From: Hymenobacter norwichensis DSM 15439
GTDB taxonomy: Bacteria > Bacteroidota > Bacteroidia > Cytophagales > Hymenobacteraceae
Direction of reading: 5' to 3'
DNA: 64,000 bases
Assembly (NCBI RefSeq): GCF_000420705.1
Contig: NZ_ATVL01000011.1
Location: 186,001 to 250,000, forward strand
Position 1 is the stretch's first letter. Each line of letters opens with the position of its first letter. A model generated the notes under the pieces. That model did not search any database, had not been told where the DNA came from, and saw only the letters and a program-made list of their open reading frames with translations. Shown piece by piece: positions 47,909 through 53,889 of this stretch. The position numbers were made by a program, and so were the translations under genes.

Positions 47909-49201
47909 TTACCGCAGCAAAAACTCCTGCAACGCCGCATAGTCTGGCTCGAGCAGCACGCTTTGCTTGGTGCGCGACAACAGGCCCCGCACCGCCACAG
48001 GTACCGGCACCTCGGTCCCGATAACCGGCTCTACCACCTCCGGGAATTTCACGGGGTGTGCCGTTTCCAAGAAGATGCCGTGCGCTTCGGGGTGCTCTGT
48101 CAGGTAGTCTTCCAGCGCCCGGAAGGCTACGGCGCCGTGTGGGTCGAGGAGGTAGCCGGTTTGCTGATGCACGCGCCCAATGGTAGCCGTAGTTTCCGCA
48201 TCCGACACTACCGCGCCGCTGACCAGCCGGCTTACTGCTGCGTGCTGCTGCTCAAACAGCTCCAGAATCCGCCCGAAGTTGCTGGGGTTGCCCACGTCCA
48301 TGGCGTTGGAGAGCGTAACCACCGCTGGCCGCGCCGCAAACATGCCGGTACGCAAGTAGTCGGCCACGGCCGAGTTGGCGTTGCAGGCGGCCACAAAGTG
48401 CCCAATGGGTAAGCCCGAGGCGTGGGCCATGAGCCCGGCGCAGATGTTGCCGAAGTTGCCGCTGGGCACGGCTACCACTGGCGCCGTATCGTGCGCCCAT
48501 TGTTGCAGGGCGTAGCAGTAATAGAACTGCTGCGGCAGCCAGCGGGCCACGTTGATGGAGTTGGCCGACGTGAGTTGCCGATGCGCCAACACCTGCGGGT
48601 CGAGGAAAGCCTGCTTCACCAGCCGCTGGCAGTCGTCGAAGTTGCCGCGCACTTCCAGGGCCGTAATGTTCTGGCCCAGGGTGGTCAGCTGCAACTCCTG
48701 CAAAGGGCTGACCTTGCCCGATGGGTACAGAATAACCACTTCCACGCCTTCCACTCCCAGAAATCCGTCGGCTACGGCGCCGCCCGTGTCGCCGGAGGTG
48801 GCTACCAGCACCGTGACGGGAGCCGTTTGCTGCTGCGAGAAATACCCCAGGCAGCGGCTCATAAACCGGGCGCCCACATCCTTGAACGCCAGCGTGGGGC
48901 CGTGGAACAGTTCCAGCGCGCTTATCTGCCCGGTTACCGGCACCAGCGGAAACTCGAAATCCACGGTTTCCGCACAGATGCTGCGTAGCACATCCGTTGG
49001 AATAGCGTCGCCCACGTAAGGCTGAATCACCTCGAAGGCCAGCTCGGCCCGCGTCATGGTTTTCAGGTTGGCTAGTACTTCGGGCGAGAATTGCGGAATC
49101 CGCTCGGGGAAATACAGGCCACCATCAGGCGCTTGGCCGGCAATGGTAGCGGCCCGGAAGTCAACGGTTGGAGCTTGCTGGTTGAGGCTGTAGTAGCGCA
49201 T
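47909..49201 (-). CDS. thrC: Threonine synthase
   Basis: 430 aa PLP enzyme. FHGPTLAFKDVGARFMSR carries the PLP-binding lysine; VLVATSGDTGGAVADGF and VVAVPSGNFGNICAG are the phosphate-binding and substrate loops. It converts O-phosphohomoserine to threonine. The final ~40 residues (EHPEAHGIFLETAHPVKFPEVV) fit bacterial class 1 ThrC. Third gene of thrA-thrB-thrC, 38 bases after thrB, under the attenuator at 52740-52932. Confidence 0.97.
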   Translation of the reverse strand: MRYYSLNQQAPTVDFRAATIAGQAPDGGLYFPERIPQFSPEVLANLKTMTRAELAFEVIQPYVGDAIPTDVLRSICAETVDFEFPLVPVTGQISALELFHGPTLAFKDVGARFMSRCLGYFSQQQTAPVTVLVATSGDTGGAVADGFLGVEGVEVVILYPSGKVSPLQELQLTTLGQNITALEVRGNFDDCQRLVKQAFLDPQVLAHRQLTSANSINVARWLPQQFYYCYALQQWAHDTAPVVAVPSGNFGNICAGLMAHASGLPIGHFVAACNANSAVADYLRTGMFAARPAVVTLSNAMDVGNPSNFGRILELFEQQHAAVSRLVSGAVVSDAETTATIGRVHQQTGYLLDPHGAVAFRALEDYLTEHPEAHGIFLETAHPVKFPEVVEPVIGTEVPVPVAVRGLLSRTKQSVLLEPDYAALQEFLLR

Positions 49202-49239: not shown

Positions 49240-50166
49240 CTATTTGAACCGGACGCCGGTGGTATTAATCGTGCTGACGTGGATGTGGAAATCGACGCCG
49301 AGCTGCTGGTACACTTCCCGCATGGCGTCGGCCACGGCCTGCGCGGTGGCTTGGGTTTCGCTGAGCATGAAAATAGACGGTCCCGAACCCGAAATGCCTC
49401 CGCCCAAAGCTCCCGCTTCCAGGCTGCGTGCTTTCACGGCGGCAAAACCCGGAATGAGGATGCTGCGCACCGGCTCTACAATACCGTCTTCCAGAGAGCG
49501 GCCAATCAGCTGGTAGTCTGACTTCAACAAACCGGCCACCAGCCCGGCCACGTTGCCCCACTGCCGGATGGCAGCTTTCAGCGGGACTTGCTGCTTGAGG
49601 ATCTGGCGGGCATCGGCGGTGCGCACTTCAATTTGGGGGTGCACCACCGTGACGTGCAGCGGCGGCGCTTGCAGCGGCACCACGTCCAGTGGTTCGGCTG
49701 AGCGGATGAGCGTAACGCCGCCGTAAATGGCAGGTGCAATGTTGTCGGCGTGCTGGGCGCCGGAAGCCACTTCTTCGCCAAACATGGCAAAACGCACCAG
49801 TTCTTCCTTCGTGAAGATGTTGCCCAACAGCTGATTAGCGCCCACCACGGCTCCGGCCGCACTGGCGGCACTGCTGCCAATGCCGCTGCCCGGCAGAATA
49901 GCCTTGTTGATGCGCATCTCGAAGCCGGTACCCGCCGGGGCCGCACGGAGCAGCGCCAGCAGGGCCGCCCCGGCCACGTTGCGCGCCGGTTCGGTGGGCA
50001 GGTCGAAGGCGTCTTCGTGGGTGATGGTCACGCCGGGCTGCTCGGTGAGGCGCAGGTGCATGGTGTCGTAGGGCGCTTCCAGGGCAAACCCCAGCACATC
50101 GAACCCGCACACCATGTTGGCCACGGTAGCCGGCGAGTACAGCGTCAGAAAATCAGAATCAGGCAT
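49240..50166 (-). CDS. thrB: Homoserine kinase
   Basis: 308 aa from MPDSDFLTLYSPATVANMVCG; an ATG at 50325 is upstream in thrA sequence and would add an unlikely extension. GHMP motifs: YSPATVANMVCGFDVLGFAL, the ATP loop LPGSGIGSSAASAAGAV, and late GGGISGSGPSIFML. It phosphorylates homoserine to O-phosphohomoserine for thrC. Between thrA and thrB is a 100-base gap with a small hairpin (50182-50201). Member of the attenuated thr operon. Confidence 0.97.
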   Translation of the reverse strand: MPDSDFLTLYSPATVANMVCGFDVLGFALEAPYDTMHLRLTEQPGVTITHEDAFDLPTEPARNVAGAALLALLRAAPAGTGFEMRINKAILPGSGIGSSAASAAGAVVGANQLLGNIFTKEELVRFAMFGEEVASGAQHADNIAPAIYGGVTLIRSAEPLDVVPLQAPPLHVTVVHPQIEVRTADARQILKQQVPLKAAIRQWGNVAGLVAGLLKSDYQLIGRSLEDGIVEPVRSILIPGFAAVKARSLEAGALGGGISGSGPSIFMLSETQATAQAVADAMREVYQQLGVDFHIHVSTINTTGVRFK

Positions 50167-50266: not shown

Positions 50267-52714
50267 CTACGCCCGGGCGGCCCGGATGATGTCGGCGAAG
50301 ACGCCGGAGGCCGTAACGTCGGCACCCGCGCCGGCCCCTTTCACCACCAGCGGCTGCTCAGGATAGCGGTTCGTGAAGAAGAGCACGGCGTTGTCTTTGC
50401 CTTGCAACACGTAGAAATCGTGGCCCGGTGCCACGCTTTGCAGCCCCACGCTGGCTTGGCCGTCGGCGTAGCGCGCCACAAACTTCAGCCGTTTGCCTTG
50501 CGCTGCGGCTGCATCATACAGGCTGCGGAAATGCGCTTCGTGCACCGCCAGTTGCCCGTAAAACGCATCCACGTCGCCTTCCAGGCACGATGCCGGCAGG
50601 AAGGACTCGTTGTGAATATCGGCCAGCTCCATTTCCTGGCCGGCTTCACGGGCCAGAATCAGAATCTTACGGGCCACGTCGGTGCCGCTCAGGTCCAGGC
50701 GCGGGTCGGGTTCGGTGTAGCCTTCGGCCTGGGCCTGGCGCACCACTTCGGCAAACGGCACGGTGCCGTCGTAGTGGTTGAATACGAAGTTGAGTGTACC
50801 CGACAGCACGGCTTCAATCCGGTGCACCTGGTCGCCGCTGCGTATTAGGTCGTTGAGCGAGCCGATAACGGGCAGGCCGGCCCCCACGTTAGTTTCAAAC
50901 AGAAACTCGGTATTGAACTCGCGCACCAAGGATTTCAGGCGGGCATAATTCGCGTATTCCGACGAGCAAGCCACCTTGTTGCAAGCCACTACCGCCATGC
51001 TTTTCTCCAGCAACGATGCGTAGATGGTAGCCACGTCGGCGCTGGCCGTTACATCCACGAACACCGTGTTGCGCAGGTTGCGGACGCGAAGCTGAGTTAC
51101 CACTTCCTGAAGGTCGAGCGGCTGACCTTTTTCCAAGGCTGCCTGCCAGTTGCCAAGGTCGAGGCTGCCTTCTTCGGCCAGCACAAACTGGCGGCTGTTG
51201 GCCAGCCCGACCACCCGCAGGTTCAGGCGCAGTTTCTCGCGCAGCCACAGCTGCTGCCGGGCTAGCTGTTCGAGAAGCTTGCTGCCCACGTTGCCCACGC
51301 CCGCCACAAACAGGTTCACTTGCTTGGTAGTCTCCTCGAAAAACTCTTCGTGCAATACGTTGATGGCCTTGCGCACATCAGCGGTGCGGATAACTGCCGA
51401 AATATTCCGCTCCGACGAGCCCTGCGCAATGGCCCGGATATTCACGCCGTTCTGGCCCAGGGCCCCAAACATTCGGCCGCTGATGCCGGGGTGGTTGCGC
51501 ATTTGCTCGCCCACCAGCGCCACAATGGCCAAGTCGGTTTCGCAACGCAGCGGCTCCACTTTACCGGCGGCTATTTCGGTGCTGAATTCCTCGTTAACCA
51601 CTGTTTGGGCCACGGCTGCATCGGCGGCCCGCACGGCCACGCAGATGGAGTGCTCCGACGAGCTTTGGGTGATGAGAATCACGTTGATGCGCTGCTGGGC
51701 CAGCGCCCCAAACAGCCGCCGCGAGAAGCCCGGAATACCCACCATGCCGCTGCCTTCCAGGTTTAGCAAGGCTAGTTGCGAGATACTCGACAAGCCCCGC
51801 ACCACATCCTGGTTGGCGGGCGGGCTTACTTCTACCAGCGTGCCTTCGTCTTCTGGCGCGAAGGTGTTTTTGATCCACAGCGGGATGCCCTGGCTCATGA
51901 CCGGCTGAATGGTAGGCGGATACAGCACCTTCGCGCCGAAGTGTGACAGTTCCATAGCCTCCTGATAGGAGATACGTGGAATCGGGCGGGCCAGAGTCAC
52001 GAGGCGAGGGTCGGCCGTCATCATGCCGCTCACGTCGGTCCAGATTTCCAGCCGCGTTGCTGCCAAAGCGCCAGCGAAAATAGCCGCCGTGTAGTCGGAG
52101 CCGCCGCGACCGAGGGTGGTAGTAACGCCCTGCGCATCGCTGCCAATAAAGCCGGGTACCACGTACACCGCGCTGGGCTGCGCGGCCACAAATTCCTGAA
52201 TCTGCTGGTTGGTAACGGCGGTGTCAACGGCTGCAAACCCGTAGTTGGAGTTGGTGCGGATGAGTTGCCGGCTGTCCTGCCACAAGTGCGCCGTGTCTTG
52301 CGCTTTCAAACAAGCCGCCAGCAGCCGCGACGACAGCAACTCGCCGTAACTCACCAGCCGGTCCAGCGTCCGGTTCGACAGTTCGCCCAACGAAAATACC
52401 CCGTCGCAGATGCTGTCCAGCTCGTTGCAGTACGTCTTCACTAGGCTCAGAACCGCGCTTTGGTCGGGGATGGGCAGTAGGCCTCGCACGGCTTCCAAGT
52501 GGCGCTCTTCCAGCAGCTTGAGGGTGGTGCGGTACTCTTCCGACCCCGTGGCGGCCAACCGGCCGGCTTCAATCAGGGCGTCGGTAGTGCCCCCGAGGGC
52601 CGATACAACTACCACAGTAGGTGCTTGCTGCCCAGCCGCGGCTACGAGCCGGGCTACGCGCTGGAGATTGGGCGCCGTAGCCACCGACGAACCACCGAAT
52701 TTCAGAACCTGCAT
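50267..52714 (-). CDS. thrA: Bifunctional aspartokinase/homoserine dehydrogenase I
   Basis: 815 aa from MQVLKFGGSSVATAPNLQRV; an upstream in-frame ATG (52741) falls in the attenuator. The N-terminal aspartokinase has VLKFGGSSVA, then TTLGRGGSDYTAAI and two ACT domains (VILITQSSSEHSICVAVRA, IRAIAQGSSERNISAVI). The C-terminal homoserine dehydrogenase has the NAD(P) site LFVAGVGNVGSKLLEQL, then FLFETNVGAGLPVIGSLND and DLSGTDVARKI. It makes aspartyl phosphate and later homoserine, opening the threonine branch. ACT domains allow threonine feedback. Transcription passes through the attenuator at 52740-52932. Confidence 0.97.
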   Translation of the reverse strand: MQVLKFGGSSVATAPNLQRVARLVAAAGQQAPTVVVVSALGGTTDALIEAGRLAATGSEEYRTTLKLLEERHLEAVRGLLPIPDQSAVLSLVKTYCNELDSICDGVFSLGELSNRTLDRLVSYGELLSSRLLAACLKAQDTAHLWQDSRQLIRTNSNYGFAAVDTAVTNQQIQEFVAAQPSAVYVVPGFIGSDAQGVTTTLGRGGSDYTAAIFAGALAATRLEIWTDVSGMMTADPRLVTLARPIPRISYQEAMELSHFGAKVLYPPTIQPVMSQGIPLWIKNTFAPEDEGTLVEVSPPANQDVVRGLSSISQLALLNLEGSGMVGIPGFSRRLFGALAQQRINVILITQSSSEHSICVAVRAADAAVAQTVVNEEFSTEIAAGKVEPLRCETDLAIVALVGEQMRNHPGISGRMFGALGQNGVNIRAIAQGSSERNISAVIRTADVRKAINVLHEEFFEETTKQVNLFVAGVGNVGSKLLEQLARQQLWLREKLRLNLRVVGLANSRQFVLAEEGSLDLGNWQAALEKGQPLDLQEVVTQLRVRNLRNTVFVDVTASADVATIYASLLEKSMAVVACNKVACSSEYANYARLKSLVREFNTEFLFETNVGAGLPVIGSLNDLIRSGDQVHRIEAVLSGTLNFVFNHYDGTVPFAEVVRQAQAEGYTEPDPRLDLSGTDVARKILILAREAGQEMELADIHNESFLPASCLEGDVDAFYGQLAVHEAHFRSLYDAAAAQGKRLKFVARYADGQASVGLQSVAPGHDFYVLQGKDNAVLFFTNRYPEQPLVVKGAGAGADVTASGVFADIIRAARA

Positions 52715-52746
52715 ACAGAAATAAGACGTGAAAGGACACAAAAAAA

Positions 52747-52794
52747 CCCGTCGGTTCCGGCTTGGCTTCTGGTTAGGAAGCGGCCGGCGACGGG
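52747..52794 (-). terminator. thr attenuator terminator
   Basis: CCCGTCG (52747-52753) pairs with CGACGGG (52788-52794); CCGG/CCGG and CTTC/GAAG extend the stem after a small bulge. On the minus strand it ends in a run of seven T (complement of 52740-52746), 26 bases before thrA. Its upstream arm (minus strand) overlaps the downstream half of the antiterminator pairing. Confidence 0.85.
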
Positions 52795-52834
52795 CTGCGA
52801 AACATCAAAGGGAGGAGAGGTAGCGCAGCCCGTC
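52789..52834 (-). promoter_or_regulatory. thr attenuator antiterminator pairing
   Basis: CGCAGCCCGTC (52824-52834) and GACGGGCTGCG (52789-52799) are perfect 11-base complements. The first overlaps the leader stop codon; the second includes the 5' arm of the terminator (minus strand). A ribosome stalled at Thr codons would leave the first strand free, form this pairing and block the terminator; a ribosome that reaches the stop would cover it and allow termination. Confidence 0.8.
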
Positions 52835-52932
52835 TAGCGGGTTGTAATACCTGTAATAATGCCGGTGCCGGTCGTCAGAGAGACGCCGGTGCAAGCAGAA
52901 ATAGTGGACGTTGAGAAGGAAAGGAAGGCCAT
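52834..52932 (-). CDS. thrL: thr operon leader peptide
   Basis: 32 codons from ATG (52930-52932) to TAG (52834-52836). It encodes nine Thr (residues 8, 10, 15, 20, 21, 23, 27, 30, 31) and four Ile (11, 25, 26, 29), with the ending ITGITTR just before the stop. This is far above chance and matches the amino acids made by the downstream pathway and its isoleucine branch. The stop codon lies in the first strand of the antiterminator. It has no other coding look: no domain, no neighbours. The gene was too short to appear in routine gene lists but fits a thr-type leader. Upstream of its ATG no clear SD site is seen, as usual for this phylum. Confidence 0.85.
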   Translation of the reverse strand: MAFLSFSTSTISACTGVSLTTGTGIITGITTR

Positions 52933-52995
52933 GAGTGCGTACTTCTGGCCGTAAAGTAGTGAATATTCGGAAAGCTGCTACAACTGGCTCGCGAA

Positions 52996-53889
52996 TTACT
53001 GCAAGAAATATACCGCCGCTACGCTCACGGCGTGTTGCTTCACTTGGTAGGGAGTTGCTCGTTTCTGCCAGTTGCTAGCAGAGAACACACCCGAGAGAGC
53101 AGGCCGCAAGCTCAGCGTGCAGGCAAGGCGGGAGGTAAGCTGATATTCAGTTTCGGCCACCAACCGCCAGTTAATTAGCCGCAGGGCTGGGTCGTCCTGT
53201 TTCTTGCGGGTGGTAGCCACTTTCGGCTGGCCATTGGGCTGCGCTTCCGGGTAAGAGGTTTCGATGCGTACTTGCCTGTCTAGGAGTAGGCTAGTAGCCA
53301 CGCCAACTTGCAAGTGCCACCGCTCTGCCACTTTGTAGCGGGCGTACAATGGTAGCTCCAGAGACGCCATAGAGTAACGGTAAACCGTTGGTAAATCAGC
53401 TTCGCTGATAGCATTGGCAACGCGTGGCCGCCCGTTTGCATCCAATAGGATGTTGCCATTCTGGTCCCTAACAAACCCGATTCCATTTATCACAAAGCTA
53501 CCATTCGGGTTCTGCACCATTCCGCTACCCGTGGAAACATACCGTTCGTAGCCAGCTTTTTCCGGCGAAAAGCGCTGTTCTATGGCAAAAGGCTGGTATT
53601 GAAGCAATAATTCAGCTCCATAGCTCCAACGGCCGGCAGCGGAGTAGCGCGCCATCAGGCCAGCCGTGAAGCCGGATTTAGCTTGAAAGGTGTGGTCGTA
53701 GGAAGTAGGCTGCGACAATACGAAGCCACCCGCGCTACCCGATACGGACACCGCCCTTGCGTAAGTGGGCATATACTTGCCGGTAGGCAACGAGCACCCG
53801 GCGGCGGCTTTCACGGCAAACTGTATTTGCTGGGCCTGCGCGGTAACAGCTAGGGCTAGCACACTAATAGGAAGTAGGAGTAGCTTCAT
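52996..53889 (-). CDS. Outer-membrane beta-barrel protein
   Basis: 297 aa with signal peptide MKLLLLPISVLALAVTAQAQ. The rest is strand-rich with aromatic ends (FAVKAAAGCSLPTGKYM, YGAELLLQYQPFAIEQRF, LELPLYARYKVAERWHLQVGVA, NWRLVAETEYQL) and closes with VSVAAVYFLQ, a typical C-terminal barrel strand with aromatic residues. PorT/OmpA-like barrel of unknown role. It lies upstream of the thr leader in the same direction (63-base gap), with no terminator between, so read-through into the thr attenuator is possible. Confidence 0.8.
   Translation of the reverse strand: MKLLLLPISVLALAVTAQAQQIQFAVKAAAGCSLPTGKYMPTYARAVSVSGSAGGFVLSQPTSYDHTFQAKSGFTAGLMARYSAAGRWSYGAELLLQYQPFAIEQRFSPEKAGYERYVSTGSGMVQNPNGSFVINGIGFVRDQNGNILLDANGRPRVANAISEADLPTVYRYSMASLELPLYARYKVAERWHLQVGVATSLLLDRQVRIETSYPEAQPNGQPKVATTRKKQDDPALRLINWRLVAETEYQLTSRLACTLSLRPALSGVFSASNWQKRATPYQVKQHAVSVAAVYFLQ

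Follow-up and report, generated by a model that had tools for sequence, protein, structure and literature searches.

A predicted ribosome-mediated attenuator of the threonine operon in Hymenobacter norwichensis, with related threonine leaders in other Bacteroidota

RESULTS

The thrABC locus

The window analyzed here is a 64,000-nucleotide stretch of contig NZ_ATVL01000011.1 of Hymenobacter norwichensis DSM 15439. It encodes, on the minus strand, the following genes of threonine biosynthesis.

50267..52714 (-), thrA, bifunctional aspartate kinase/homoserine dehydrogenase (Pfam domains AA_kinase, two copies of ACT_9, NAD_binding_3, and Homoserine_dh)
49240..50166 (-), thrB, homoserine kinase by reading of the open reading frame list, with the start taken at MPDSDF
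47909..49201 (-), thrC, threonine synthase by reading of the same list

These genes, assigned from Pfam for thrA and by reading for thrB and thrC, are predicted to synthesize the very amino acid whose codons enrich the short leader frame described below. Named close matches include H. telluris and Hymenobacter sp. YC55. On the same strand, an outer-membrane gene (52996-53889) ends 63 bases before the ATG of the leader; within the 3' end of this beta-barrel gene there is a terminator-like inverted repeat (53014-53032, minus strand).

Leader frame and alternative RNA structures

The region between the outer-membrane gene and thrA contains the following elements.

52952..52958 (-), promoter-like box TACTTTA of the Bacteroidota -7 type (TAnnTTTG-like), located 19 nt upstream of the leader start codon
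52834..52932 (-), frame of the leader peptide, of whose 32 codons 9 encode Thr and 4 Ile, closed by TAG; in relatives the peptide mostly ends with TTR
52838..52841 (-), strand 1, CCCG of the Thr31-Arg32 codons, pairing with 52829-52832 and leaving the stop codon in the loop
52824..52834 (-), strand 2, 5' arm of the antiterminator, a perfect 11-bp complement of strand 3
52789..52799 (-), strand 3, predicted to fold either as the 3' arm of the antiterminator or as the 5' arm of the terminator, with the conserved GC(A/C)GCCCG
52745..52796 (-), predicted intrinsic terminator hairpin of strands 3 and 4, -29.9 kcal/mol, z -4.4
52740..52746 (-), run of seven U behind the terminator hairpin; T-rich at the same place in aligned Hymenobacter

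The leader frame (52932-52834, minus strand) reads MAFLSFSTSTISACTGVSLTTGTGIITGITTR, followed by the stop codon, and represents a predicted translatable frame rich in the product amino acid of the operon. The original prediction of a 32-codon frame with nine Thr and four Ile codons was borne out base for base, in its coordinates as well as in its counts. Among 5,000 dinucleotide-shuffled versions of the 250-nt region preceding thrA, none contained an ATG frame of up to 40 codons with at least 9 Thr, and just 2 of the 358 short ATG frames in the window have a higher Thr fraction; both of these are only 18 codons long, and one of them sits within a 413-aa gene. The TAG stop codon overlaps the start of strand 2 by one base (52834), a position from which a terminating ribosome would be expected to mask the antiterminator strand.

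Strand 2, GACGGGCUGCG (52834-52824), is the exact complement of strand 3, CGCAGCCCGUC (52799-52789), so the perfect 11-base pairing proposed originally holds on the minus strand. Structure prediction for both folds, suggested as a check at that time, gives -26.3 kcal/mol for the antiterminator 2:3 folded alone (z between -6.4 and -7.1), as well as the terminator energy listed above, and it places strand 3 in the 5' arm of a strong terminator with a seven-U run, again as predicted. The antiterminator and the intrinsic terminator share strand 3; the claim that these folds are mutually exclusive stands, with the correction that the design comprises four strands, including a 1:2 hairpin absent from the earlier description. 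In the window, this hairpin is weak (-6.4 kcal/mol, z -0.3) and no better than its shuffles. The entire 221-nt leader is far more stable than shuffled versions of itself (z -5.2). The U-run is separated from the ATG of thrA (52714-52712) by 25 nt. When the genome was searched for further copies of the stop-codon hairpin, two matches with 2 to 3 mismatches were obtained, no more than in the reversed-pattern control.

Conservation within Hymenobacter

The compared set consisted of thrA upstream regions from the genus Hymenobacter, with 65 thrA loci, and from the named genomes. Lack of conservation of the Thr-rich frame or of the alternative pairing in relatives had been given as grounds for abandoning the original prediction; both turned out to be conserved. 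Of the 65 Hymenobacter loci, 39 have a Thr-rich leader in which strands 2 and 3 recur and a U-run terminator follows, with stems that are 90 to 95% paired, and this conservation rules out a chance origin of the arrangement. The leaders mostly end with ACA ACC CGN and a stop codon, followed by CGGGC(U/C)GC, then GC(A/C)GCCCG, and then the U-run terminator; the GC(A/C)GCCCG of strand 3 is present in all aligned relatives except one.

Stem statistics were derived from an alignment of 25 distinct sequences (A2), with the stems slid by 1 to 3 columns serving as controls. The fractions of paired cells are 95.2% for 1:2, 92.4% for 2:3, and 90.0% for 3:4, compared to 21 to 61% in the slid controls, and the 1:2 pairing of the 25 sequences was matched by none of 500 shuffles. 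The innermost pair of 1:2 is C-G in 15 sequences and G-C in 4, a compensatory change, and 2:3 shows a compensatory change from G-C to A-U in two sequences; 10 of the 25 sequences carry a U/C-C mismatch within 2:3. The terminator core (columns 75-80 and 125-130 of A2) is 90% paired, with zero double changes. Most core pairs are invariant across A2, covariation is limited, and the idea of rich covariation in the Hymenobacter stems was rejected, the double changes being few.

The codons of the 39 distinct leaders fall into two kinds. The second codon before the stop (-2) is ACC in all 39, and codon -3 is solely ACA or ATT; these codons lie in or next to strand 1, so that a constraint on the RNA would account for their fixation. 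Codons -4, -6, and -7, in turn, are mostly Thr, with ACA, ACC, ACT, and ACG interchanged, and codon -4 specifies Thr in 25 leaders and Ile in 12, that is, one or the other in 37 of the 39. Such synonymous and Thr/Ile exchanges point to constraint at the level of the peptide. Isoleucine swaps with threonine at several leader positions and is missing altogether from some leaders. Accordingly, the view that both amino acids serve as signals needs amending: its threonine part stood, but Ile is dispensable in some leaders, so that, judging from the codons, the signal common to all leaders would be Thr, with Ile as an optional addition.

Upstream of the leader, 37 of the 39 Hymenobacter sequences carry a TACTTTR-type box, compared to 50 of 351 control windows. 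Because this promoter-like box is conserved, we infer a transcription start close upstream of the leader, with thrABC transcription beginning a few bases before it. A candidate sequestration of the leader start codon by a GGCC..GGCC pairing, present in the minimum free energy fold, was set aside, since the putative start site would fall within or after the first arm.

Proposed mechanism

What is observed directly is the sequence itself, its codon content, the complementarity that makes the folds mutually exclusive, the form of the terminator, the conservation, and the operon. We are highly confident that these features are best explained by a ribosome-mediated (Yanofsky) transcription attenuator of thrABC; in this model, coupling, signal, and promoter, as well as the direction of control, are inferred from the sequence. 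When Thr-tRNA (and perhaps also Ile-tRNA) is scarce, the ribosome would stall at Thr/Ile codons before reaching the stop, leaving strand 2 free to pair with strand 3, which would block the terminator and allow thrABC to be transcribed. With ample Thr-tRNA, the ribosome would proceed to the stop codon and, because that codon shares its last base with the start of strand 2, would cover this strand; strands 3 and 4 could then pair and transcription would end at the run of U residues that lies 25 nt upstream of thrA. Very probably, the switch shuts down the threonine biosynthesis genes under an ample supply of threonine. The difference between -6.4 kcal/mol for 1:2 and -26.3 kcal/mol for 2:3 suggests that an untranslated leader would favor readthrough and terminate poorly.

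The hairpin could instead be a plain terminator of the upstream outer-membrane gene, with an accidental Thr frame and with the promoter of thrA located after the terminator. The end of that same-strand gene only 63 bases before the leader ATG fits this picture, and the sequence between 52740 and 52714 is compatible with a second promoter. However, a plain terminator needs neither a frame nor a stop position nor strand 2, and all three are conserved, with synonymous changes, in the 39 loci; moreover, the 25 nt between the U-run and the ATG are scant room for a promoter, and a conserved promoter box precedes the leader. We consider this explanation very unlikely.

Terminator/antiterminator pairs are also carried by elements that sense a metabolite or a protein, such as riboswitches or T-box-like switches, in which case the short frame would be incidental. 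Searches against Rfam detected no family at the gathering score anywhere in the window. Specifically, neither Thr_leader (RF00506) nor Bacteroid-trp (RF01692) was matched up to an E value of 5 in the region 52000-53500 or at the gathering score in the window, and the just three sub-threshold matches obtained in 52000-53500 up to E=5 are neither thr- nor T-box-like. Apart from the peptide frame and the pairing strands, nothing resembling a conserved aptamer domain is evident, and the leader codons vary synonymously, all of which makes a switch of this kind extremely improbable.

Distribution in the genus and the history of thrA

No leader was recognized in 26 of the 65 Hymenobacter thrA rows (about 40%). 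The suggestion that this lineage controls thrABC by attenuation is therefore supported for the part of the genus represented by the 39 loci, the regulation itself being a reading of their sequences. The Hymenobacter rows form one cluster in the thrA tree; the leader is present on the basal branch (L123) and across most of the remaining rows, and is absent from two subclades, in which thrA has a different sequence context. Several leaderless copies (L047, L052, L053, L062, and others) apparently lie beside a divergent gene. In another of the 26 rows (L007), the attenuator strands are intact and the Thr frame is apparently shifted by a one-base difference in a G/T-run relative to L008, which appears to reflect either a sequencing error or decay.

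The thrA of Hymenobacter is 60 to 66% identical to the Chitinophagaceae-type proteins, compared to 44 to 51% for those of other genera of its own family. This closer similarity hints at horizontal transfer of Hymenobacter thrA. Other genera of the same family (L135-L148) and another family of the same class (L203, L204) have Thr-rich leaders of a different build, also followed by strong intrinsic terminators.

Threonine leaders mostly without an intrinsic terminator elsewhere in Bacteroidota

In Chitinophagaceae and in two further groups, Flavobacteriaceae-like (f6) and f21, whose names are guesses from kinship labels, the region before thrA encodes a Thr/Ile peptide that ends with TT(R/L/P) and whose stop codon lies in a hairpin loop. 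Behind this stop-codon hairpin lies a module that combines the conserved sequence CAUAYYRYC with a small hairpin, GGC..GCU.

CAUAYYRYC-type leaders, upstream of thrA in L055-L113, L173-L188, and L221-L233; for example, L061:1398-1449

In these lineages, the stop-codon hairpin shows double changes at three pairs, in an alignment fitted to the model, and the GGC..GCU hairpin has an anchored score of 6.5, compared to 3.7 +/- 0.4 in shuffles, none of which (0 of 300) reached it. A covariance model of these leader elements (R1) gives one strong match (E<=1e-5) in each of 13 of 21 genomes, located before thrA; the L229 match was so placed by its downstream frame. The same model retrieved no attenuators of other Chitinophagaceae operons, the weaker matches examined being no leaders, and a pattern search for the CATAT module returned zero useful matches. 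By eye, CATATCA(T/C) is also seen near the start of many of the frames (L071, L081, L097, L106, and others), where it encodes the residues HI, so that a motif of this type flanks the stop-codon hairpin on both sides.

Most leaders of the CAUAYYRYC type have no U-run directly behind the small hairpin and no intrinsic terminator. As the peptide and the stop-codon hairpin are retained in these leaders, the wider family seems to have another kind of output, which would fit leader-peptide control acting mainly via Rho or via coupling to translation. For Hymenobacter, we give this explanation very little weight: the aligned sequences have a strong U-run terminator that is mutually exclusive with the antiterminator. 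By its thrA, Hymenobacter groups with the Chitinophagaceae, the Flavobacteriaceae-like, and the other lineages that carry the CAUAYYRYC module. A tentative reading, which we hold possible but do not favor, is that Bacteroidota have an ancient thr leader, with a Thr/Ile peptide and a stop-codon hairpin, whose output in those lineages is the CAUAYYRYC module, and that Hymenobacter kept the sensor and swapped the output for a canonical terminator/antiterminator pair.

DISCUSSION

By its predicted design, the Hymenobacter element is a classic attenuator of the E. coli type, in a phylum with hardly any earlier descriptions of one. Like the E. coli thrL attenuator (RF00506), it combines a Thr/Ile leader peptide with an antiterminator that excludes an intrinsic terminator in front of thrABC. 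It differs from thrL in the length of the leader (32 codons versus 21 in E. coli), in its Bacteroidota-type promoter box, in a strand 2 that starts at the stop codon, and in its short and weak 1:2 hairpin. In the E. coli trp attenuator, the leader stop codon lies within the 1:2 region, as it does in the Hymenobacter thr leader. The 1:2, 2:3, and 3:4 arrangement likewise corresponds to the four-strand model of that attenuator (PMC1183508), but the amino acid sensed is a different one and the 2:3 pairing of Hymenobacter is much stronger than its 1:2. In the thr operon of E. coli, specificity is set by the Thr and Ile codons of the leader, according to Lynn et al. 1987 as cited in PMC7041290.

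In Bacteroidota, the Bacteroid-trp RNA (RF01692) is a putative trp attenuator, which differs from the Hymenobacter thr leader in its amino acid and operon. It figures among the RNA motifs of Bacteroidetes with a probable cis-regulatory role (PMC2864571). Leader-peptide attenuation has been proposed from transcript data upstream of amino-acid operons in Flavobacterium psychrophilum (PMC9723704); those elements precede pheA, hisG, and others, and threonine does not figure in the main text of that paper. Short frames within long 5' UTRs have been described in B. thetaiotaomicron (PMC7366714). A survey of attenuation in Bacteroidetes exists (Lopatovskaya et al. 2010, as cited in PMC4833913). The openly readable papers searched touch on leader-peptide attenuation in Bacteroidota just briefly and contained no report of thr-operon attenuation in this phylum; subscription surveys may predict such leaders. 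A His-rich leader before hisG was not found in the genome of H. norwichensis, so this search gave no evidence of attenuation at another operon of this genome.

The analysis adds a well-supported thr attenuator to Bacteroidota, in which leader-peptide attenuation is thinly documented, and the coordinates of its putative promoter, start, and end make it testable. The more novel lead is the CAUAYYRYC module, which poses the question of how a leader halts transcription in the absence of a U-run terminator and which, if the ancestral-leader reading is true, would be an undescribed kind of attenuation output. Together, these sequences suggest that control of thrA by Thr leaders is widespread in Bacteroidota, in several builds.
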